Below are positions 4,181 to 17,776 of a stretch of 64,000 nt of DNA, one piece after another (the stretch's first letter is position 1; every line of letters begins with the position of its first letter). Location of the stretch: contig JAIPDI010000007.1 of the NCBI GenBank assembly GCA_021737785.1, forward strand, positions 62,001-126,000, written 5' to 3'. A program made the position numbers and the translations under genes. The DNA is from Deltaproteobacteria bacterium. Its GTDB lineage: Bacteria; Desulfobacterota; DSM-4660; Desulfatiglandales; Desulfatiglandaceae. The notes under the pieces are model-generated. The model worked only from the letters and a program-made list of their open reading frames with translations. It ran no database searches and was not told the DNA's origin.

Positions 4181-5302
4181 ATGTTTGAAAGCAAATTTAT
4201 GGGAAAGACTACGACTCTCCCCCCGAGCTGTCCCTTCTGCGGTCTTCTGATTGAACGGCCGAAGGAATTGACAACTCACAGACCCGGGGAGATGCCGGTA
4301 GGATCCTGTTCCTGCGGAGCGGTGTATGCCTGTGACGAAACCGGACATAATCAGGGGTCCGCCATGATCGAGGCCCTGGTGTTCGGGTGTAATATGGACT
4401 GGGACCTGGCCTGGAATCTCCTGCCCGAAGAGGATTACAAGCAGGAGATTGTCGAGCATTACGATTATGCCAGACATATGATTATTCCGGGAGGATTCAT
4501 GGACAGCAGGCGGATATCCGGGGTCCTTTTTTTCATCAGGTTACATGAAGATGTTCGGGAAGTAACCTCTGACGGTGTTCAACAGAAGTTGAAAAAGGCC
4601 GCATCTGCTCCTGTTTTGCGCAGAAAGCCGTCTCCGGGAATCGGGAAGAAGCCTCTGTCCAAAAGCCAGATCGAAGCGCTCGTAAGGGAGTTTCGGATTG
4701 AGGCGATACTCGATATTGCGGGAGAAGACAAGAAGCTTATTAGAAATCTTCAGAGGCTGATTTATTCGGGCGACGATCTTTTGCGAAAAAGGGCCGCGGA
4801 GATGTTAGGCCGGGCATGCGCCGTCATTGCCGAGCAAGAGCCCGGCGCCGTTTCAAAACTCCTTCAGGGGCTTTTTTACGCTATTTCGGACACGGCGGCC
4901 TTTACCTGGGGGGCCTTTGAGGCGATCGGCGAAATAATCAGCCATCGGCCTGATCTGTTTGCAGGATATGTTGCGCAGCTATATCAGTTCTTAGCCGACA
5001 AAACCCGGCGGGCCCAAGCCCTTCAAGCCATCGGTCGGGTGGCGATGTCAAGGCCGGACCTTCTCCGAAAGCACACCTTTCATTTCTTCGTCTACCTCGA
5101 AGATCCAGATCCGGCAGTGCGCGGGTATGCAGCCTGGCTCATGGGGAATCTCATGGCCCATGAAGCGAAGGGCGAACTGGAGAAACTCGTAGACGAACCC
5201 GATGAGGTGTATCTATATGAGAACGGAGATATAATGAAATTGAGCATCGGTCGGATCGCATCTGAGGCACTGGAGAAAATAGGGGTCAGAGGCGGCGCGT
5301 GA
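4181..5302 (+). CDS. HEAT-repeat protein with N-terminal zinc-ribbon-like motif (resembles DVU0298-type proteins)
   Basis: This 373-residue protein has a cysteine-rich N-terminus, 'CPFCG' (about 17-21) and 'CSCGAVYAC' (about 43-51), that could bind zinc. A middle part contains 'MDWDLAWNLL'. A C-terminal array of paired helices (about 170-370) includes repeated 'RKRAAEMLGRA' and 'VRGYAAWLMGNLM' segments typical of HEAT repeats. Proteins of this type are, to my recollection, conserved in sulfate reducers (for example a Desulfovibrio vulgaris locus near DVU0298), but I cannot verify that here. HEAT arrays act as scaffolds. It overlaps the next gene by four bases. Confidence 0.7.
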   Translation: MFESKFMGKTTTLPPSCPFCGLLIERPKELTTHRPGEMPVGSCSCGAVYACDETGHNQGSAMIEALVFGCNMDWDLAWNLLPEEDYKQEIVEHYDYARHMIIPGGFMDSRRISGVLFFIRLHEDVREVTSDGVQQKLKKAASAPVLRRKPSPGIGKKPLSKSQIEALVREFRIEAILDIAGEDKKLIRNLQRLIYSGDDLLRKRAAEMLGRACAVIAEQEPGAVSKLLQGLFYAISDTAAFTWGAFEAIGEIISHRPDLFAGYVAQLYQFLADKTRRAQALQAIGRVAMSRPDLLRKHTFHFFVYLEDPDPAVRGYAAWLMGNLMAHEAKGELEKLVDEPDEVYLYENGDIMKLSIGRIASEALEKIGVRGGA

Positions 5303-6486
5303 CAGTGCACAAAAACCCTTCCCTGAATGATTCAACCCTTTTGATAGACGATCTATTCTCATCCCCCGAGGGGGACATCCCCCTTGGGGCTGAAGATCTC
5401 ACAAGACCCTTTCTGATCGCGCCTTCAGAACCGCATCTTTTTTTGACGTTGGGAGACTATTTCGAGGCAATCAAAAGATTCGTCTTGAAAGATGAAAGGG
5501 ACCGTCTGATCGATGCCCTCCAGGAGACGCCATTGAGAGAAGATGATGTCGGCACCATCAAACGGATGCGGATCCGGAGCGAAAAGCATGGGGTCCTCTA
5601 CCATGTGTCGAGCGTCGAAATGCTTCTTGGTGACAGGCCTATCAAATTTGCGGTCAGCACCGCCGTCTCGGAAGGCGCAAGAGCATGCTTGGCAAAGGAA
5701 TACGAGATCGTGAAATCGCTTCATCGTTTAGATGCTTCCTATCTCCCGAAGGTTTACAAAAAAGGAGATGTGGTATGCCAAGACGGATATTCATCTTATG
5801 AAACGCTGACCCTGATGCTTTCCGAATGGTTTGAAGACTACCATGAATGGCATTTTGCCGTGCATGGGGCGGATAATGGCCAGAAGGTCTGTATTTGGGA
5901 CCTTGAAAACGGTCATCGATATGCTTCCGAAGCGGAAGCTTTCGAGATTTTCAGGCAGGCATCCAGAATTCTTACCCTCTACTATGATGTGCACACCTTC
6001 AAGCAGATCATTCCCTGGAGCCATGCAGCCGGAGACTTTGTGGTGAAAATCGGGGATGACGGCATCCATGTCAAGCTCACCACAGCCAGAGACTATCGGT
6101 CGATTATGGATGTCTTCTTAGAGGATGGCGTCCATCCGACCATTGCCGTTGCCTATTTTTTTCTGAACCTTACGGTTCGGATGCGGTTGGACAGGGTGAA
6201 CGGCGTGGGGGAAGCCGTCTGGGCCGGGGATTTTTCCCTGCGGGCTGCAATTGAAGGATTCTTTGAGGCACTTCAAATCTTGGCCGAGAAGGATATGCTC
6301 ACGCCTGGTGACATTCAGAAACTCCTGTCTCTGCTGAAGTCGTTGGACGAGGATGAGCTTGAAAGTCTCTATACCCCGTTGATGGCGTTCTATTATGAAG
6401 AGAATCCCGCTGAATTTCATATAATAAACGCACATCTCAAAGACCATGTCAGGTCCTTGTGCCAGATCCTCCGGGAAGACCGGTGA
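5299..6486 (+). CDS. Hypothetical protein, possibly a divergent kinase-like fold, 395 aa
   Basis: The gene starts with GTG four bases inside the stop of the HEAT-repeat gene. Residues about 100-170 read like the N-lobe of a protein-kinase fold: a beta segment 'RPIKFAVSTAV' then 'LAKEYEIVKSLHRLDASYLPKVYKKG'. Farther on, 'LSEWFEDYHEWHF' resembles a hinge, and 'WSHAAGDFVVKIGDDG' lies where the catalytic loop would be. Canonical HRD and DFG motifs are not clear, so activity is doubtful. The C-terminal 120 residues are helical. The last 38 bases overlap the convergent YkgJ gene at 6449. Confidence 0.65.
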   Translation: MTVHKNPSLNDSTLLIDDLFSSPEGDIPLGAEDLTRPFLIAPSEPHLFLTLGDYFEAIKRFVLKDERDRLIDALQETPLREDDVGTIKRMRIRSEKHGVLYHVSSVEMLLGDRPIKFAVSTAVSEGARACLAKEYEIVKSLHRLDASYLPKVYKKGDVVCQDGYSSYETLTLMLSEWFEDYHEWHFAVHGADNGQKVCIWDLENGHRYASEAEAFEIFRQASRILTLYYDVHTFKQIIPWSHAAGDFVVKIGDDGIHVKLTTARDYRSIMDVFLEDGVHPTIAVAYFFLNLTVRMRLDRVNGVGEAVWAGDFSLRAAIEGFFEALQILAEKDMLTPGDIQKLLSLLKSLDEDELESLYTPLMAFYYEENPAEFHIINAHLKDHVRSLCQILREDR

Positions 6487-7099
6487 TGAGTTCTTCAAAG
6501 GGCGTTTTTATTACCTTTGAAACAGATAAAAGCAGTGTCGACATTTCAAGATCTTTTCCCCCAGCCCTTTCCAAGATTTCCTTGGACAACTGATGGAGTT
6601 CGCGATGGGCCTCGTCAAGATCGAAGACAGGATATTCCTGTCCCTTTTTGAAATCCGCCTTTCCACAGACACGGGGTACCCCCCGGACCCGGGTCGGAAT
6701 GCCGTAAACCCGGCATGTGATCGGCCGGTAAGGGTACAGTACGCATTCGTTACGGTCATTCAGCAGGGGGCAGCGGATTCGCGCTCTGGCTAATGAATAG
6801 GAGATCATCTGAGGATCATCTTTGAATGATCTCAGGGTTCCTTCCAGCTTTTCAAGGGCCTGGTCCGCATCGCGGCCCCTCTTGAGCGCCGCTTTCCGTT
6901 CCGCTTCGTCAAGTTGATCAAAATCGCGTTTGAGAAAGGCGGCTTCGATCAGAAACAGGCCGAACACGGCGTGGCAGCAGTCCGCACAATGGGGTTCACA
7001 TCGGATGCACTCGGAAAATTGTTCTCTGGCCCGATGAAACGACTCATCCGCCTTTGACACGATGCTCTCGTAAGGTTCGAATAGATAGGAGAAATCCAT
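6449..7099 (-). CDS. YkgJ family cysteine cluster protein
   Basis: The 216-residue protein carries the YkgJ cysteine cluster: C31, C34, C38, C41 and C42 ('CIRCEPHCADCC'). A second set follows in 'RIRCPLLNDRNECVLYPYRP' and 'PITCRVYG'. Members of this family (also UPF0153) are thought to bind zinc or an Fe-S cluster and often sit next to Fe-S enzymes. Here it is the last gene of the dsrABD transcript, one base after the TPR gene stop, so a role in handling or maturation of the sulfite reductase is plausible but unproven. It overlaps the convergent gene ending at 6486 by 38 bases. Confidence 0.85.
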   Translation of the reverse strand: MDFSYLFEPYESIVSKADESFHRAREQFSECIRCEPHCADCCHAVFGLFLIEAAFLKRDFDQLDEAERKAALKRGRDADQALEKLEGTLRSFKDDPQMISYSLARARIRCPLLNDRNECVLYPYRPITCRVYGIPTRVRGVPRVCGKADFKKGQEYPVFDLDEAHRELHQLSKEILERAGGKDLEMSTLLLSVSKVIKTPFEELITGLPGGSGTRT

Positions 7100-7100
7100 T

Positions 7101-7721
7101 TTAACGGTGAGGCTCCAGCGCTTTCAGAAATTCGGGGTGGGGTTGAAATCCCAGTGAAATGGCCTTGTCCAGATGCTCGATGGCCTTCTTGTATTCATTG
7201 TTATTATAATATGAAGAGGCCAGATTGTTGTGACCAAGGGCAAAATCAGGGGCCATGTCCACCAATTTCTTCCCTGTCTCTATGGCCTGTTCCACATCGC
7301 CTTTCTGGAGATAGGCGTTCACCAGATTGCTCCAGGCCTGAACGATGCCCGGATTCAGCTCAATGGCCTTGTTCAAGGCCTCAATGGCCTCGTCGGTCCG
7401 GGACATCTGAAGGTATGCAAAGCCCAGGTTGGCATATCCCCGCGCGTATCGAGGCTCGATTTCGATGGCCCTCTTGTTGGACTCGACCACCATTTCCAAA
7501 TCGCCCTTTTTGAAATAGATATAGCCCAGGTTGACATATCCCTCAAACATCCTGCCGCTGTTGTCGATCGCATCGTTAAAGGCATCGATCGCCTCGTCCA
7601 GCCTGCCCTGCTCCATCAGGCCTACACCCAGATTATAGCTTGAACTGGCGCATTCCGAATTTTCATCCCGCACTTTTTTCTGCTCGGCAATAAAATTCTC
7701 TGCACCCTGCGGTTCTTTCAT
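7101..7721 (-). CDS. Tetratricopeptide repeat protein in the dsr operon
   Basis: The protein of about 206 residues consists of at least four TPR units with the usual pattern, for example 'YVNLGYIYFKKGDLE', 'YANLGFAYLQMSRTDEA', 'WSNLVNAYLQKGDVEQA' and 'HNNLASSYYNNNEYKKA'. I chose the ATG at 7721 ('MKEPQG'), preceded by AGG, over an upstream start at 7784. TPR proteins are protein-interaction scaffolds, and there is no signal peptide, so it acts in the cytoplasm. It lies 93 bases after dsrD and one base before the YkgJ gene, which makes it a candidate assembly partner for DsrAB or DsrC. Confidence 0.88.
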   Translation of the reverse strand: MKEPQGAENFIAEQKKVRDENSECASSSYNLGVGLMEQGRLDEAIDAFNDAIDNSGRMFEGYVNLGYIYFKKGDLEMVVESNKRAIEIEPRYARGYANLGFAYLQMSRTDEAIEALNKAIELNPGIVQAWSNLVNAYLQKGDVEQAIETGKKLVDMAPDFALGHNNLASSYYNNNEYKKAIEHLDKAISLGFQPHPEFLKALEPHR

Positions 7722-7814
7722 TTGAGACCTCGTAAAATAGGAAGAGGTCGCCCCCCGGTCCCGGACGGCGACCCCTCTTGTCATCAGCTAACGTTCACAG
7801 CCTGAACGGAGTGA

Positions 7815-8081: not shown

Positions 8082-9269
8082 TTATTCAATCCCGCCGGCC
8101 GCCCTTGAGACTTCCCACGCCGCCTCAGTATATTTAAACTGGGTGGATGTCCGGTATGTATCATACTGGAGTCGATAATCATCAATGAGATGTTCGGTAA
8201 AGGGGAGGTCGCATTTCTCAAAGAACCGCTCCCATCCGATGCGCTTGGCCCAATCGCCGATTCGCTCATACTTCTTGGCATCCGCTGCATAGGCCTCAAC
8301 GATCCTCTTGACGTGCGCGCACACATCGGGATACCTGGGGAATTCGTTCGGGAGCCATGGGACCACCACCTTGGAAAATTCAGGCGGGCTGATCCGGTTG
8401 GAAATCTTGCCTCCGGCCAGGATCGTCACGCCGTCGCCTTCCTTGTCGGCCAGGGGCACGGCCATGCACATGGTATAGCAGTTTCCGCAGAACATGCACC
8501 GTTCGTCCTTGATCTTAACGGTCTTTTTCCCCTCTTCGGTCTTGGCGGGCGATATGGCCCCTGTCGGGCATGCCGCGATGACCAGAGGTATCTCACACAG
8601 AGAATCAATGACCTCATGGTCAATGACCGGCGGCTTTCTGTGATACCCCAGGAGGGCGATATCCGAGCAATGCACAGCCCCGCACATATTGAGGCAGCAG
8701 GCCATGGATATCCTGACCTGGGCCGGAAGGGTCATGCCCTGAAAATAGTCGAACAGATCGTCCAGGACCGCCTTGACCATGGATGAGGCATCGGTCGCCG
8801 GTGTATGACAGTGGAGGAATCCCTGGGTATGCACGATATTTGTGATTCCGGCGCCGGTCCCGCCGATAGGGAACTTATAGCTGCCGGTTACGTGCTTACG
8901 ATTCTGTAAATCCTTTTTCAATGCCTCCATCTTATCCTGACTGTCGGTCATGAATTCGATGTTATTTCGAGTGGTGAACCGGAGATAGCCGTCGCAATAT
9001 TTATCTGCGATCTCACACATTTCCCGGATATGTTCCACCGACATGAAGCGGCAGCCGCCGCATCTGACAGTAAAAACCTTATCGCCTGTTTCAGACACAT
9101 GAACCAGGATACCCGGCTCCAGAATCTCATGAGATTTCCATTTCCCGTAGTTATTCTGGATAATAGGAGGAAAGTACTGCCAGAAGTGCCTGGGCCCCAA
9201 GTCAGTGAGCCTGTTTTGCATCGGTTTTTCAGGATTGTACAGCCCTAATCTCTCAGTAGATAATGCCAT
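8082..9269 (-). CDS. dsrB: Dissimilatory sulfite reductase, beta subunit
   Basis: This 395-residue protein is full-length DsrB. The siroheme/[4Fe-4S] cysteines include C191, C192, C196 and C201 in '[11 protein letters not shown]'. A ferredoxin-type cluster is formed by C234 in 'CPTGAI' with C258, C261, C264 and C268 in '[11 protein letters not shown]'. C70 and C73 lie in 'CGGCRFMS'. Together with DsrA it forms the alpha2beta2 enzyme that reduces sulfite and passes the sulfur to DsrC in the cytoplasm. Catalytic siroheme is carried on the DsrB side in known structures. It starts 12 bases after dsrA ends. Confidence 0.98.
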
Positions 9270-9281
9270 TCTATGTACCTC

Positions 9282-10700
9282 CTATCTCTTATGCTTGGCT
9301 CGGTATACGTTAATATCGCGTTCAAAGCCACCCGGCACATCTTCCGATTTCCAGAAGATGTAGGGGTTACTCCTGGGTTCTGTCACCATCTGCGGCATGG
9401 CAGGAATTTCAAGCACCTCCAGGAATTTCGGGATTCCGTAGCGCTGGATCAGTTCACCTAAGCGCTCGCGGTTCTTCCCCTCTTCCATCCACCAGTCCCA
9501 CACCTTTTCCACGATCTCCTTGATGTTGTCGTAGGGGTGCTCACACTTTACAAAAGGAATGGTCAGGACCGACATCTGGGCGCCCTCGAGAATCGGCGCC
9601 TTGGCCCCGAAGAGGATGCTGCACCCGGTGTCCGTGCCCGGTCTCAAGGCGGCGGGCATGGTATCGATGCAGTGCATGCAGCGGGTACATTCCTTGTCGT
9701 CGATCATGAGTTTGCCGTCTTCCATCCACATACACTGGGTGGGGCAGCGATTAATCACTTCATTTTCGATATCGAATTTCCCCCAGTCTTTCCCGGCGTG
9801 CGCACCGCCATTGGGCGGAATTTCGCCGCCGATATATGCCTGGACCGCTTCCTGATCGATCCGGATATTGTCTCTCCAGGTCCCGATGTACGACATGTCG
9901 GATCGGGCGATGGACGCAACACATCCGTTGGGGCAGCCGTCGAATTTAAATTTAAACTTGTACGGGAAGGCCGGGCGGTGCAGTTCATCCTGGTAATAGT
10001 TTGTCAGTTCGTAGCACATATCCTGGGTATCAATACAGGCATATTCGCAGCGGGCCTTTCCCAGGCAGCAGGAAGGGGAGCGCAGATTGGATCCAGATCC
10101 GCCCAGATCCTGCTGGAGCACGTGACCCAGCTCATAGAAAACCGGCTCAAGCTGCTCGGTAAAAGTCCCCAGGAATATGATGTCCCCGGTGGATCCGTGC
10201 ATATTCATCAGACCGCTCCCTCGATATTCCCACAGGTCGCAAAGGCATCGAAGATAATCCGTATCATAAAACTTGCTCATGGTCTGGTTCACACGCATGG
10301 TGTGAAAATGGGCAATGGAAGGAAACTGCTCCTGCAGGTCGGAATACCGACCGATAACGCCGCCTCCATAACCGAACACCCCCACGATGCCGCCATGCTT
10401 CCAGTGGGTTTCGCCGTCGTCAAAAGAGACCTGGAGCTGTCCCAGCAGATCTTCGGCCACATCCGCCTCAATCATCATTCGATCTTTTGCCAGTTTTCTG
10501 CGGTGCAGGGCCTCTCGTTTGGTATCGGCCACAAAACTCGGCCAAGGCCCCTTTTCCAGTTCATCCACATCCGGGATCTCGTGCTTTATCTTGAAATTCT
10601 TGAGCTCTTCCTCTGTATAATTATTCAACTCCTCGTCGGAGTAAATCCTGAGCTCCTCATACTTGAGTATCTTTTGTTCCTGTGCTGGTTCAAATGCCAT
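9282..10700 (-). CDS. dsrA: Dissimilatory sulfite reductase, alpha subunit
   Basis: The 472-residue protein is full-length DsrA. Cluster ligands are visible as C211, C212, C218 and C222 in 'CCLGKARCEYAC' and C256 and C260 in 'CPNGCVAS'. The inserted ferredoxin domain holds C319, C323 and 'CTRCMHC' (C338, C341, C344). It pairs with DsrB to reduce sulfite to the DsrC-bound trisulfide. A strong AAAGGAGG stands eight bases before the ATG, as expected for a highly expressed respiratory enzyme. It heads the operon dsrA-dsrB-dsrD-TPR-YkgJ. The promoter should lie in the AT-rich gap upstream. Confidence 0.98.
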   Translation of the reverse strand: MAFEPAQEQKILKYEELRIYSDEELNNYTEEELKNFKIKHEIPDVDELEKGPWPSFVADTKREALHRRKLAKDRMMIEADVAEDLLGQLQVSFDDGETHWKHGGIVGVFGYGGGVIGRYSDLQEQFPSIAHFHTMRVNQTMSKFYDTDYLRCLCDLWEYRGSGLMNMHGSTGDIIFLGTFTEQLEPVFYELGHVLQQDLGGSGSNLRSPSCCLGKARCEYACIDTQDMCYELTNYYQDELHRPAFPYKFKFKFDGCPNGCVASIARSDMSYIGTWRDNIRIDQEAVQAYIGGEIPPNGGAHAGKDWGKFDIENEVINRCPTQCMWMEDGKLMIDDKECTRCMHCIDTMPAALRPGTDTGCSILFGAKAPILEGAQMSVLTIPFVKCEHPYDNIKEIVEKVWDWWMEEGKNRERLGELIQRYGIPKFLEVLEIPAMPQMVTEPRSNPYIFWKSEDVPGGFERDINVYRAKHKR

Positions 10701-12563: not shown

Positions 12564-12592
12564 TTGACAGGGATCTCAGAAGATGGTACACG
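12564..12592 (+). promoter_or_regulatory. Possible separate promoter for dsrC
   Basis: TTGACA at 12564-12569 is followed after 17 bases by TACACG (12587-12592), a weak -10 box. It lies in the 101-base gap between dsrN and dsrC and would allow DsrC, needed in large amounts, to be made independently of dsrN. Confidence 0.3.
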
Positions 12593-12629
12593 ATACGACA
12601 TCTTAATCAAGAAAGGGAGGTTTTGGGTT

Positions 12630-12947
12630 ATGCCAACAGTAGAGTTTGAGGGGAATACCTACAGTGTTGATGAAGACGGCTTCATTGACGATTTCAACAA
12701 CTGGAATGAGGCATGGATGCGCTATGTGAAGACGACGGAAGGTATTGAGGAACTGACCGACGAGCACAAGAAGGTGGTCGATGTTCTTCAGGACTATTAC
12801 AAGAAGAATGGGATCGCCCCCATGGTGAGAATCCTCTCCAAGGTCACCGGATACAAGCTGAAATACATCTACGAGTTATTTCCCTCTGGACCGGGCAAGG
12901 GTGCCTGTAAGATGGCCGGCCTGCCAAAACCCACGGGTTGCGTCTGA
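12630..12947 (+). CDS. dsrC: Sulfur carrier protein DsrC
   Basis: The 105-residue protein ends in the flexible DsrC arm 'KGACKMAGLPKPTGCV' with both redox cysteines, C93 and C104, eleven residues apart. The two-cysteine form is the true DsrC co-substrate of DsrAB: it leaves as a trisulfide that membrane complexes such as DsrMKJOP reduce. One-cysteine TusE/RspA-type homologues lack that ability. The ATG at 12630 has GGGAGG nine bases before it, and the longer frame from 12564 is not the start. It is followed by a hairpin at 12981-13026. None of the dsrMKJOP genes is in the window. Confidence 0.96.
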   Translation: MPTVEFEGNTYSVDEDGFIDDFNNWNEAWMRYVKTTEGIEELTDEHKKVVDVLQDYYKKNGIAPMVRILSKVTGYKLKYIYELFPSGPGKGACKMAGLPKPTGCV

Positions 12948-13071: not shown

Positions 13072-13395
13072 TTAGCCGGTCTTGCTTCTAAGCGCCTTTC
13101 CTGCTAGTGGATTATAGAGCTTGGTAATGGCGAACTTCATGACGTCCAGGCTCTTCAGATTAAAAATAATGTCTGCAAGGGTGATCTGGGCCTGTTCCGG
13201 AAGCACACATGCGTTGGATGAATCAAATGTAAGATCAGGAAAGGCTTTCTGAAGCTTCTTCTGGTCTTTCTGGCTCATAGCCACCTGGACGGCCTTTTTG
13301 CCATCGATTTCCTGAATATGTTCGCCTAGGCCAAGTTCTTCCATCTTTTTCTGCTGTTCCGGATCCAAAAAGAGATTGATACAGTAATCTGCCAT
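13072..13395 (-). CDS. Small hypothetical protein, 107 aa
   Basis: I do not recognise this protein. It begins 'MADYCINLFLDPEQQKKMEEL', has an amphipathic helix-rich middle and ends in basic residues. There is no signal peptide or membrane helix and only two cysteines (C5 and one near the middle). A purine-rich ribosome-binding stretch (GAGGAGGGAATTAAGTAA) precedes the ATG, supporting it as a real gene. It is convergent with dsrC and diverges from the YcaO gene. Confidence 0.6.
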   Translation of the reverse strand: MADYCINLFLDPEQQKKMEELGLGEHIQEIDGKKAVQVAMSQKDQKKLQKAFPDLTFDSSNACVLPEQAQITLADIIFNLKSLDVMKFAITKLYNPLAGKALRSKTG

Positions 13396-13667: not shown

Positions 13668-14984
13668 ATGAAGTTTCAAAACCACATCCGGAACGAATAT
13701 AATAAATGCGATACCCCGGATAATACTGTGCGCCGAATCCAGCAGGGGTTCGACCGCCTGGGACTTGCGCCCGAATATGCCGGAGTCAGGGTTTCGGATT
13801 TGCTCTTCTGGGGAAGAATCTGGATCGATTCGCTCCAGATCGTGTGCGAGGGAAAAGGCATCTCCCACAGACTGGCTGAAGCAAGCGCATATGCAGAGTT
13901 GGCGGAACGGATGAGCGCCGGCCTATATTATCCGGTGTTTGAAGAACAGGTCCGATTTCATCTGCCGGGGATCTACGGCCCCGATACCGTCCGTTTTTTG
14001 AATTACGAATGGATGGAGGGGTATGTCAGGGCTCACCAGACAGAATTGGACAGGGCCGTGACCGTCGAGGAGCTGCTCCGAAGGGAATGCCATCTCAGCA
14101 GCGCGCACTTGACCGAAATCAAGGACTGCGAGATGGCGCGACACTGGGTCGACGGCTATTCCCTGCTCCGGGAAGAGACCGTCAAGGTCCCGGTCAAATT
14201 CGTGGCCTACATCCACGGTTCCAACGGGATGGCCGCCGGCAACACCATCGAAGAGGCCATGATCCAGGCAAGCTGCGAAATCCTGGAGCGATATGCCCAG
14301 ATCAACATCGTTAAACCGGAGACGATCGTCCCGTCCATCGACACTGGCACAATAGACCTCGATCTAATCCACCGGATGATCGCGTTTTATGCCCGATTCA
14401 ATGTCGGCGTTACCCTGAAGGACCTTTCTTTTGACGGCATGCTGCCGGTCATCGGGGTATTCTATACCAACCGGAACCTCCCCCCGGACCGGCTGGAACA
14501 CAGATCCCTGATCGCAGGCGCCTCCTTCACCCTGGAGGAGGCCCTCACCCGCTGCTTCACCGAAGGGATGCAGGGGAAGAAGTCCCTTCTTACTTCACGG
14601 CCCCAGTTTGACAGGCCGGTGGTCCCCAGGTCCCAGGTCAAAGACTACTATACCCTGATGCGATGCGGGGTCTCGCCGACCGATATCTCCTTTTTAGATG
14701 AGGGGAAGATGACGGGCTTCCGTCCGTGGCGGAAGAAAGACATTCTGGAGGAGATCGAGGCGCTCAAAGAGATCGTCAGGGGGTTCGGGACCGACTGCAT
14801 CGTCCTGAAACACACCCATCCGGTCCTGGAGTTCCCGGTGGTTCGGGTGGTCATTCCCGGGATCTCGGATTTTCTCCCATTCCTCCCTTCGACCATCCTG
14901 ACCGATGAAAAGACCAAACCGGCCACGGCCTGGAAAGGGGAGACCTTCATGAGAGTCATGCAGAGCTTTTTCACCCATCACTGA
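13668..14984 (+). CDS. YcaO-domain protein
   Basis: The 438-residue protein shows the ATP-binding motifs of YcaO: 'EGKGISHRLAEASAYAELAE' (61-80) and 'GNTIEEAMIQASCEILER' (191-208), then 'FTLEEALTRCFTEG' (about 287-300). These supply the glutamates and arginines for Mg-ATP. YcaO enzymes activate a peptide amide oxygen with ATP to form azolines, thioamides or amidines. It has no fused TfuA or docking domain and no C-terminal PxPxP tail, so it is unlike classical azoline-forming YcaOs. It has its own promoter, and the only near neighbours are an amidohydrolase and a radical SAM gene. The substrate is unknown; a link to DsrC or another sulfur protein is speculation. Confidence 0.85.
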   Translation: MKFQNHIRNEYNKCDTPDNTVRRIQQGFDRLGLAPEYAGVRVSDLLFWGRIWIDSLQIVCEGKGISHRLAEASAYAELAERMSAGLYYPVFEEQVRFHLPGIYGPDTVRFLNYEWMEGYVRAHQTELDRAVTVEELLRRECHLSSAHLTEIKDCEMARHWVDGYSLLREETVKVPVKFVAYIHGSNGMAAGNTIEEAMIQASCEILERYAQINIVKPETIVPSIDTGTIDLDLIHRMIAFYARFNVGVTLKDLSFDGMLPVIGVFYTNRNLPPDRLEHRSLIAGASFTLEEALTRCFTEGMQGKKSLLTSRPQFDRPVVPRSQVKDYYTLMRCGVSPTDISFLDEGKMTGFRPWRKKDILEEIEALKEIVRGFGTDCIVLKHTHPVLEFPVVRVVIPGISDFLPFLPSTILTDEKTKPATAWKGETFMRVMQSFFTHH

Positions 14985-15808
14985 TCCCCGTTGACGGATG
15001 TCTTCTCATACAGCGACGGCCTTCTTTCCGGAAGGAAATATTTCATTCGGTGGGTTCTCAGATCCTGGAGGATCTCATCTTTGAGTTCAGCATAGAGGAT
15101 GTGTTCTTTCATGCCCACATACTGCGTTAATACCCGGCCGTCCGGCCCCAAGACCACGGCAACCCCTGGAAAGGTAAGGCCGTTTTCGAAGGACCCCACC
15201 TGGTTGCAGGCGATCACATAGAGCCCGTTGTCAAATGCCCTGGCCGGCAGGTGTCTCATCCAGCTTTGCAGTTTTTCCTCGGGCGCCCCCCTCGGGGAGG
15301 CGTGGGGGATGAGGACAATATCCGCCCCCATGAGGGCCATCCGGGTGCTGATCTCCGGGAAGTGGGCTTCATAGCAGAGCTGCACGCCGAACGTGGTCTT
15401 TCCGACCTTGAATACCTCGATCTTTTCCCCAGGACAATAGACGGCCGTCTCCGTGGGGCCCAGATGCGTCTTCCGGTAGGTCCCGATCAGGCCGTCAGGG
15501 CCTGCGATTATCTGGGCGATATAAGGGTTCCCTTCATCCGTGACCTCAATGAGTCCGGCGATGAGAACGATTTCTGTCTTCTTCGCTGTCCGGACCAGCC
15601 GATCCACTATTTTTTCCATCTCCCGGAGCCCATATATCCGGGAGGGAGAGGTCTGGATATAGCCGGTTACCGACAACTCAGGGAAACAGACGAAATCGGC
15701 GCCGTTGGCGGATGCCTCTTGGGTCATGGACTCTATTCTGTCGAGGTTTCCGGCAATGTCTCCGGGATTGGCGTGCATGCAGACAGCGGCTGTCTTGAGA
15801 TCGTTCAT
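14978..15808 (-). CDS. Nitrilase-superfamily carbon-nitrogen hydrolase
   Basis: The protein of 276 residues has the complete Glu-Lys-Cys triad of the nitrilase superfamily: E44 in 'FPELSVTGY', K113 in 'YRKTHLG' and C145 in 'GVQLCYEAHFPE'. Such enzymes hydrolyse amides or carbamoyl groups, or run glutamine-dependent amide transfer, in the cytoplasm. The sequence resembles the stand-alone N-carbamoyl/omega-amidase type rather than the NAD synthetase domain. Its 3' end overlaps the convergent YcaO gene by seven bases. Its substrate cannot be told from sequence. Confidence 0.88.
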   Translation of the reverse strand: MNDLKTAAVCMHANPGDIAGNLDRIESMTQEASANGADFVCFPELSVTGYIQTSPSRIYGLREMEKIVDRLVRTAKKTEIVLIAGLIEVTDEGNPYIAQIIAGPDGLIGTYRKTHLGPTETAVYCPGEKIEVFKVGKTTFGVQLCYEAHFPEISTRMALMGADIVLIPHASPRGAPEEKLQSWMRHLPARAFDNGLYVIACNQVGSFENGLTFPGVAVVLGPDGRVLTQYVGMKEHILYAELKDEILQDLRTHRMKYFLPERRPSLYEKTSVNGDQ

Positions 15809-15988
15809 GGTAAATCTCCTCCAACGTGGTCCGGGAGAGCGATGGACAACATGCGCCCCGGAGCGGGATTGCGTCAGCAGTCATTGATTACCATCTTTAC
15901 TGACATTCAGTCAATTTGAACACTCCAAAATCCATATTGCGGAAAACGGCTTTGACAAGCGGCTCTGCTTCGTATAGGAAATATTTCA

Positions 15989-16037
15989 GAATCCCGGTGG
16001 AGCTTGAATGGGGTTTAACCGCCTGGCGCCGGGATTC
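15989..16037 (+). repeat. Inverted repeat before the radical SAM gene
   Basis: GAATCCCGG (15989-15997) pairs perfectly with CCGGGATTC (16029-16037) around a 31-base loop. It ends nine bases before the GTG at 16046 and could be a transcript 5' structure or an operator. Confidence 0.45.
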
Positions 16038-16099
16038 AATAGAGCGTGCATTCTTTTTCTTATTCCTTCTTCCCAGGATCTGAAGGTCGGATAATAAAA

Positions 16100-17776
16100 T
16101 TGAAAATACTTCTTATATACCCTTATTGCCTTGAAGAGCGGATCCATGAGGACGATGTAAGGGTTCCCCCCATCGGACTCTATTATGTGGCTGCGGTCCT
16201 AAGGGAAAACCATTATGACTGCGAGATCCTGAACTGGCACCAGATCAACCGGACGCCGGAGCGTATCCGGGAAACCCTGGCCGCAAAGGCCCCGGACGTG
16301 ATCGGCATTTCTGTTTTGCATGCCAATCGGTGGGGGGCCATCGAGATCGCGCGGATCGCCAAGGCGGTGGATCCGTCGGTCAGGGTTGTATTCGGGGGCG
16401 TCGGTCCCACCTTGTTGTGGGAGCACTTCCTAAAAAATTTCAAAGAGATCGACTTCTGTGTCCTGGGAGAAGGCGAATATGCGTTCCTTAACCTGATACA
16501 GTCGATCGAAAAGAAGGATTCACGGGCAATTGAAAAGATTCCGGGAATTGCCTTGAGAAAAAAGGGAGGGGTTGTCAACACCAAAGCGCCGATCCCCATT
16601 CGGGATCTCGATCAATTGCCGGATCCTGCAAACCACTTCATCTATCAGCATGTGAGTACTACCCGGGGGTGTCCGGGCAACTGCACCTTCTGCGGATCAC
16701 CCCGAATCTGGGGTCGCAAGGTCAAGTTCCACTCCCCCCGGTATTTTGTCGATCAGTTGGAGCATCTGCATCAGAAGGGGGTTGGTTTTTTCTATTTTTC
16801 GGACGACACCTTCATGCTTAAGAAGGACAATGTGATAGCAATCTGCAAGGGGATACTCGAAAGGGATCTTCGGATCTCGTGGGCCGCCATCTCCCACGTC
16901 AATTATGTGGATGAAGAGGTCCTCTCCTGGATGCGACGGGCCGGGTGCACCCAGATCAGTTACGGGGTCGAAAGCGGTTCAGAGAAAATAAGAGACCTGC
17001 TGCAGAAAAATATCCGGACCGACCAGATCCAAAAGGCCTTCTCGTTGACGACTCGGTGGGGCATCCTTCCCCGGGCCTATTTCATCTATGGCTGCCCGGG
17101 AGAGACGTGGGACACCATTCAGGAAACCATCGACCTGATTCATACGATCAAGCCCCTCGGCGTTATTTTTTATATACTTGATATTTTTCCAGGAACCGCC
17201 CTTTATGCGGATTTTGTAAAGCGAACAGGCGTTAAAGACGATATCTGGCTCAGGCAGGTTGAAGATATCATGTATTTCGAGACAGACCCCTGTCTCAATC
17301 AGGAATTGATCCTTGCCTTCGGGAGGAAGCTGAGGGCAGAGTTCTACAGCAGCCTCCCCTCCTTTGTGGATGCCATCGACCTGGTGGACGAGGAAGGATT
17401 TTCCGGGCTGCATGCCGATTTTCTGTCGCGGCTCGGGATGACCTTCAGTCACGGTGATTATGCCGGGATAGAGGCCATCCCAAACAAAGATGAAACCGCC
17501 GCAAAACTGTATGAACGATCCTTGAGTTACGCCCCCAATGACAGGGCCTATCTGGGTCTGGGGATCATCCGGCAAAAGGAGAGGGAATTCCACGAATCCA
17601 TCCGCATCCTCTCCGAGGGGGTACGGCATTTCCCGGAAAACGAGCAGTTATGGATCTGCCTGGGTCTGAGCCATATGAACTTGGGCCAGCATAGCGAGGG
17701 CCTCTCCTGTTTCGAAAAATTCAGAAACTCGGAACAGGCAGCGTCTTATATTGCAGAGTGCCGACGGCAATTATGA
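16100..17776 (+). CDS. B12-binding radical SAM protein with C-terminal TPR-like region
   Basis: Counting from the TTG at 16100 the protein has about 558 residues. Residues about 1-140 form a cobalamin-binding Rossmann-type domain ('KILLIYPYC', 'VIGISVLHANRW', 'VVFGGVGPTLL'). The radical SAM core follows with the [4Fe-4S] motif 'CPGNCTFC' near 191-198 and 'YGVESGSEKIRD'. The last 100 residues contain TPR-like units ('AYLGLGIIRQKEREFHES', 'LWICLGLSHMNLGQHSEG'). Proteins of this class methylate or rearrange unreactive carbons. The frame also opens at a GTG at 16046, but that start adds a non-family tail and lies just after an inverted repeat. Confidence 0.85.
   Translation: MKILLIYPYCLEERIHEDDVRVPPIGLYYVAAVLRENHYDCEILNWHQINRTPERIRETLAAKAPDVIGISVLHANRWGAIEIARIAKAVDPSVRVVFGGVGPTLLWEHFLKNFKEIDFCVLGEGEYAFLNLIQSIEKKDSRAIEKIPGIALRKKGGVVNTKAPIPIRDLDQLPDPANHFIYQHVSTTRGCPGNCTFCGSPRIWGRKVKFHSPRYFVDQLEHLHQKGVGFFYFSDDTFMLKKDNVIAICKGILERDLRISWAAISHVNYVDEEVLSWMRRAGCTQISYGVESGSEKIRDLLQKNIRTDQIQKAFSLTTRWGILPRAYFIYGCPGETWDTIQETIDLIHTIKPLGVIFYILDIFPGTALYADFVKRTGVKDDIWLRQVEDIMYFETDPCLNQELILAFGRKLRAEFYSSLPSFVDAIDLVDEEGFSGLHADFLSRLGMTFSHGDYAGIEAIPNKDETAAKLYERSLSYAPNDRAYLGLGIIRQKEREFHESIRILSEGVRHFPENEQLWICLGLSHMNLGQHSEGLSCFEKFRNSEQAASYIAECRRQL

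Follow-up and report, generated by a model that had tools for sequence, protein, structure and literature searches.

A YcaO family recurrently linked to dissimilatory sulfite reductase genes suggests a chemical modification of the sulfate-respiration machinery

The dsr island and its YcaO gene

The window analyzed here, a 64,000-nucleotide stretch (G000:C7:62001-126000) of a Desulfatiglandaceae draft genome (G000; 5.33 Mb, 96 contigs), carries an island of dissimilatory sulfite reductase (dsr) genes that includes a gene for a YcaO enzyme. From left to right, the island encodes a HEAT protein, a protein labelled o5299, a CxxCxxCC protein, a tetratricopeptide repeat (TPR) protein, DsrD, DsrB, DsrA, a CobB-type amidotransferase, DsrC, a DUF6955 protein, YcaO, a nitrilase-type hydrolase and a B12-binding radical S-adenosylmethionine (SAM) protein (Table 1). 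The last three had been placed beside dsrC by a sequence-only reading of this DNA, and all are present and intact within positions 13668-17776. The ycaO gene begins 720 bp after the end of dsrC, with the DUF6955 gene in the gap. It shares its strand with the radical SAM gene, and the nitrilase gene between them is convergent with ycaO and overlaps its 3' end by 7 nt.

The YcaO protein belongs to the YcaO superfamily, scoring 174.7 bits against PF02624 (curated cut-off 25.7). Its AlphaFold2 model (mean predicted local distance difference test, pLDDT, 83.6) has the YcaO fold and matches Escherichia coli YcaO best among PDB structures (VIA Z 31.6, 3.3 Å over 378 residues), followed by the YcaO of Methanocaldococcus jannaschii (Z 29.3) and the Methanopyrus kandleri enzyme (Z 26.7). 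The ATP-site residues GKG62-64, E77, E80, R81, E196, Q200, E204, E207, R208, R295, E299 and Q302 are present and are invariant in 30 orthologues. Five of these (E196, Q200, E204, E207 and R208) belong to the ATP-binding motif Sx6-7Ex3Qx3ExxER, in which the first Ser is replaced by Ala189, as in M. jannaschii YcaO.

The best NCBIfam score, to the uL16-thioamidating model NF040716, is 100.4 bits against an equivalog cut-off of 700. The protein lacks the C-terminal TPR and the very acidic isoelectric point (pI) of the uL16 type, since only the YcaO domain is matched and the pI is 6.09 (4.34 for a partial E. coli open reading frame, ORF). It also scores below the cut-offs of the McrA-glycine thioamidation model TIGR03266 (77.2 bits vs 365) and the SagD-type model (66 bits vs 219). 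The traits of YcaOs that make azoline or thioamide ribosomally synthesized and post-translationally modified peptides (RiPPs) are missing, as the sequence-only reading had indicated: the C-terminus reads ...MRVMQSFFTHH and has no PxPxP tail, a genome-wide search found TfuA in 0 of 20 carrier genomes (this one among them), and no conserved precursor-like small ORF occurs around 52 ycaO loci. The genome encodes two further, longer YcaOs (578 and 565 aa); the third YcaO gene, with the 565 aa ORF, is locus L003 (G000:C10:55395-59051).

Table 1. Genes of the dsr island discussed in the text (window coordinates)
Feature	Position	Strand	Evidence
TPR protein of the dsr operon, candidate helper subunit	7101..7784	-	TPR families to 6e-38
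DsrD, 76 aa	7815..8045	-	ORF directly after dsrB; family kept at dsr loci
DsrB, candidate substrate	8082..9269	-	PF01077, PF03460, ferredoxin domain
DsrA, candidate substrate	9282..10700	-	NIR_SIR PF01077 3e-39; mostly 78-94% identical across class genomes
CobB/CbiA-type amidotransferase, read as DsrN (siroheme amidation; PMC10504309)	11092..12528	+	TIGR00379 419 bits; place beside dsrA/dsrC
DsrC, sulfur-carrier protein, canonical C-terminal two-cysteine arm	12564..12947	+	TIGR03342 112 bits, PF04358; first ATG 12630
DUF6955 protein, 107 aa, dsr-island gene divergent to ycaO	13072..13395	-	PF22271 3e-21
dsr-linked YcaO, 438 aa, predicted ATP/Mg-dependent amide-activating enzyme, no fused TPR domain	13668..14984	+	PF02624 E 4e-51
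Nitrilase-type C-N hydrolase, 276 aa, dsr-island member	14978..15808	-	PF00795 3e-44; Glu44, Lys113, Cys145 by sequence
B12-binding radical SAM protein with TPR tail, 576 aa	16046..17776	+	PF02310, PF04055, PF07719

Linkage of the YcaO family to dsr genes

The dsr-linked YcaO defines a discrete and narrow family. Orthologues occur in 8 of 394 genomes of the phylum, with a gap between the weakest orthologue (E 1e-178) and 1e-40, and those from named genome contigs are at least 57% identical. A plasmid search returned no close relative (best matches about 26% identical). One orthologue (L078, 692-2005) is broken into two ORFs. The carriers also have dsrA in 49 of 52 genomes (40 of 43 outside the window's family, all 8 other carriers, and the window genome itself).

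Outside the window, ycaO was located at 51 loci on named genome contigs, and at 22 of these at least one of dsrA, dsrB, dsrC and dsrD is no more than 10 kb away (95 bp to 9.5 kb); chance alone predicts about 0.2 such loci. Among loci with at least 5 kb of DNA on both sides, the fraction is 12 of 19. Because relatives are not independent, the gene orders outweigh the first of these counts, and they comprise four well-sampled arrangements and two single ones. In the window clade, cobB and dsrC are followed by the divergent pair DUF6955 and ycaO, and then by the convergent nitrilase gene. In the cultured strain NaphS2 and two relatives, ycaO is embedded in a co-directional series (dsrA, dsrB, dsrD, ycaO, TPR, CxxCxxCC), with 9-55 bp between ycaO and the TPR gene. 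The third arrangement is divergent, with ycaO reading away from DUF6955, TPR, o5299 and dsrA. In the Eth-SRB1 type, ycaO is again divergent to DUF6955 and is followed on its own strand by TPR, o5299, dsrA, dsrB, dsrD and cobB. The single cases are locus L083, with ycaO 3.3 kb from dsrA, and locus L040 from a genome labelled Desulfonatronovibrio, with ycaO 9.5 kb from dsrA and adjoining a radical SAM gene. This recurrence of YcaO inside or beside the sulfite reductase genes suggests an unrecognized chemical modification of the sulfate-respiration machinery. In the literature searched, we found no description of a dsr-dedicated YcaO family, and no link of YcaO to DsrC or to this locus.

YcaO and dsr seem to have become linked on more than one occasion, because YcaOs of the window type and of the NaphS2 type do not group in a single clade. 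In the YcaO tree, the window clade branches with L040 and two YcaOs from Desulfobacterales, and the NaphS2 clade stays outside this group, although the window and NaphS2 genomes share a family and have DsrA proteins with 85% identity. Constraining their YcaOs to a single clade was rejected by the approximately unbiased test (p 0.003), for a grouping that was picked after the tree was seen, yet is also what taxonomy predicts, and with some long branches in the tree. The simplest reading is that ycaO entered this family at least twice, each time at a different position within the dsr locus. In a set of 17 genomes, the distances among YcaOs are correlated with those among DsrA proteins (Mantel r 0.72, p 0.001). 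The mean identity of YcaO, 72%, is close to the 75% of DsrA, a level of conservation expected for an enzyme with a fixed protein substrate.

Other genes were seen near ycaO at a set of related loci. A second B12 radical SAM protein, with FKBP-type peptidyl-prolyl isomerase and TPR domains, is encoded at L044 (12722-15046), with relatives at L046, L048, L062 and L079. A PrmA-like methyltransferase gene is also found near ycaO at L044, L046, L048, L062 and L079; three of these loci (L044, L048 and L062) show dsr genes. We did not use these two genes (5-6 loci) as an argument, as they are confined to related genomes and score below equivalog cut-offs.

A candidate modification of a Dsr protein

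We propose, with a probability of about 0.5, that this is a sulfide-using YcaO dedicated to dissimilatory sulfite reductase and acting on the backbone of a Dsr protein, probably to form a thioamide. YcaO enzymes act by nucleophilic attack followed by phosphorylation of the backbone amide (PMC13063428), and with sulfide as the nucleophile the product is a thioamide. Having bound ATP and Mg, the dsr-linked YcaO would activate a single backbone amide in a folded Dsr protein. Its most likely substrate is DsrA or DsrB, with DsrC next; we prefer a Dsr protein because the enzyme that produces sulfide in a sulfate reducer is the one encoded beside ycaO. With this abundant sulfide as the nucleophile and no TfuA, the product would most likely be a thioamide. 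As a docking subunit, YcaO may use the small TPR protein encoded in the dsr operon, in place of the TPR domain that is fused to longer YcaOs. Solved DsrAB-DsrC structures exist (2V4J, 2XSJ, 3OR1, 3OR2 and the 3MM5 series), and lysine methylation of DsrC has been reported in Desulfovibrio vulgaris (PMC3125180).

Precedents for such an enzyme come from two systems. E. coli YcaO, the uL16-Met82 thioamidase (PMC13063428; PDB 4Q84-4Q86), has the closest fold and the best NCBIfam score, and it thioamidates folded uL16, a housekeeping protein, when given ATP, Mg and Na2S, without TfuA. It differs in its strong acidity and in its fused TPR domain, which mediates dimerization and might help uL16 binding, and the dsr-linked protein scores far under the cut-off of its model. 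The methanogen McrA-glycine thioamidases (TIGR03266; M. jannaschii 6PE3, M. kandleri 6CI7) are similar in length and fold, share the Ala at the first motif position (M. jannaschii) and can work without TfuA: two TfuA-lacking methanogens still hold thioglycine in methyl-coenzyme M reductase (MCR). They resemble our candidate also in modifying a key enzyme of an energy pathway, whereas the candidate is bacterial, dsr-linked and well below their model cut-off. A third comparison, made by description only, is DVU2210, a YcaO-TPR protein of D. vulgaris; this is likewise a TPR-associated YcaO in a sulfate reducer, but its TPR is fused and it is tied to molybdate sensitivity, with no direct act in sulfate reduction according to its authors (PMC7774982).

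Several observations weigh against a dedicated Dsr-modifying enzyme. Neither substrate nor product has been observed, and both are inferred. No DsrA or DsrB position separates genomes with YcaO from those without; the last 35 residues of DsrC are nearly identical between the two sets, with no difference that tracks YcaO, and among DsrD residues only one variable position does so. Most dsrA-bearing relatives in the class (46 of 54) lack YcaO, so it is not essential for Dsr. Seven ycaO loci with at least 5 kb on either side show no dsr gene in the available stretch, and the TPR gene is present at dsr loci with or without ycaO. Finally, azoline or macroamidine formation and peptidase activity are also among the activities of YcaOs, so that a thioamide is only the likeliest product.

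Alternatively, the dsr locus could be a sulfur source only, with DsrC persulfide or DsrAB sulfide feeding a YcaO whose thioamidation target lies outside the Dsr proteins, uL16 for example. In its favour, DsrC/TusE proteins carry sulfur, no sulfur donor is known for E. coli YcaO, and this genome has the RMG motif that is targeted in uL16. We consider this unlikely. The longer YcaOs are the better candidates for uL16, because nearly all genomes of the family have one regardless of the dsr-linked YcaO, and the dsr-linked protein lacks the length and acidity of the uL16 type.

Doubtful in its own right is an extended version of our proposal, in which the Dsr of some sulfate reducers would bear MCR-like modifications near its active site, a thioamide from YcaO and a C-methylation from the B12 radical SAM protein, both enzymes being encoded in the dsr island.

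The target might also be the DUF6955 protein or the TPR protein rather than a catalytic Dsr protein. DUF6955 is found at 17 of the 51 ycaO loci, divergent to ycaO; some members with YcaO in the genome end in a Gly-rich tail, and the TPR gene is the next same-strand gene after ycaO in 11 other loci. However, NaphS2 and G034 have YcaO and no DUF6955, and both proteins also occur without YcaO (DUF6955 is in 23 of 67 class genomes, 6 with YcaO and 17 without). We give this explanation a small chance. DUF6955 as a general YcaO substrate was rejected for its absence from NaphS2 and G034. Its model (pLDDT 75.7, moderate) has no notable PDB match (best Foldseek E 0.38, best VIA Z 2.4). The Gly-rich tail (GRDISGRGTGGR) stands in place of GKAxRSK in these members. 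The DUF6955 gene was seen, for example, at L041, L047, L062, L081, L089 and L102, and the family was also matched in the Sulfolobus acidocaldarius control genome.

Nitrilase and radical SAM neighbours of ycaO

The sequence-only reading had joined YcaO, the nitrilase and the B12 radical SAM protein into one suggested modification or cofactor pathway, possibly acting on a protein of sulfur metabolism. The tie to sulfur metabolism is borne out for YcaO by its repeated dsr linkage in several gene orders, but the three-gene grouping did not survive comparison with relatives: the trio fails the test of co-occurrence in relatives that the reading itself had set, and ycaO and the radical SAM gene are each associated with dsr separately.

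The three genes are adjacent in the window. Transcription as one operon is excluded by the nitrilase gene, which runs antiparallel to the other two and overlaps the 3' end of ycaO. That gene occurs near ycaO at only five other loci, four of them in the window clade, and the stretch read of the NaphS2 dsr operon with ycaO contains none. In the comparison set of 30 dsr loci from class genomes lacking this YcaO (L087-L116), by contrast, it adjoins dsrC and the DsrN-type gene in 20 (L087-L095, L097, L100, L102, L104, L106, L107, L109, L110 and L113-L115). It is therefore a dsr-island gene with its own link to dsr and not a partner of YcaO, and it could conceivably act in the chemistry of siroheme amides or of glutamine. 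The nitrilase, DsrN-type and TPR genes are ordinary dsr-island members. The HEAT (DVU0298 family), o5299 (no Pfam match), CxxCxxCC and TPR genes at 4181-7784 are found with dsrABD in most of the dsr loci that were read.

The radical SAM protein has both the B12-binding and the radical SAM domain, with CxxxCxxC from residue 209, and a C-terminal TPR that barely exceeds the Pfam cut-off. It matches no named equivalog among those compared (BchE, MCR Gln methyltransferase and others; best BchE, 182 bits vs 481). Homologues begin at residue 17-19 of the GTG-started ORF, which makes TTG 16100 the probable start. This gene also neighbours ycaO in L040 (44% identity), and orthologues are present in 43 of the 51 carriers counted (35 of 43 outside the family). 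They are, however, found in 40 of 67 class genomes, only 8 of which have YcaO. Within the dsrA-bearing class genomes, all 8 with YcaO and 31 of 46 without it have the orthologue (Fisher p 0.09). The association with dsrA itself is stronger (39 of 54 genomes with dsrA vs 1 of 13 without; Fisher p 3e-5, lineage effects not removed), and the gene lies within 4 kb of dsrA in G016, G017 and G024 and at 10-50 kb in several others. Judged from these distributions, the radical SAM protein is loosely dsr-linked and co-occurs with YcaO without depending on it. A single pathway of the three enzymes is thus very improbable.

Many YcaOs make RiPPs, but a RiPP enzyme (forming an azoline or thioamide peptide) with an overlooked precursor is hardly credible here, given the lack of a conserved precursor-like ORF and of TfuA, the low SagD score, the high conservation of the YcaO and its linkage to dsr.

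What is unusual at this locus is the dsr-dedicated YcaO family, for which strain NaphS2 is a cultured carrier. The only cellular proteins known to be thioamidated by YcaO are MCR and uL16 (PMC13063428). If our proposal is correct, a Dsr protein would be the third, in a key enzyme of sulfate respiration, giving another major anaerobic energy pathway a parallel to MCR. It would also mean that the chemistry of DsrAB or DsrC varies among lineages of sulfate reducers.

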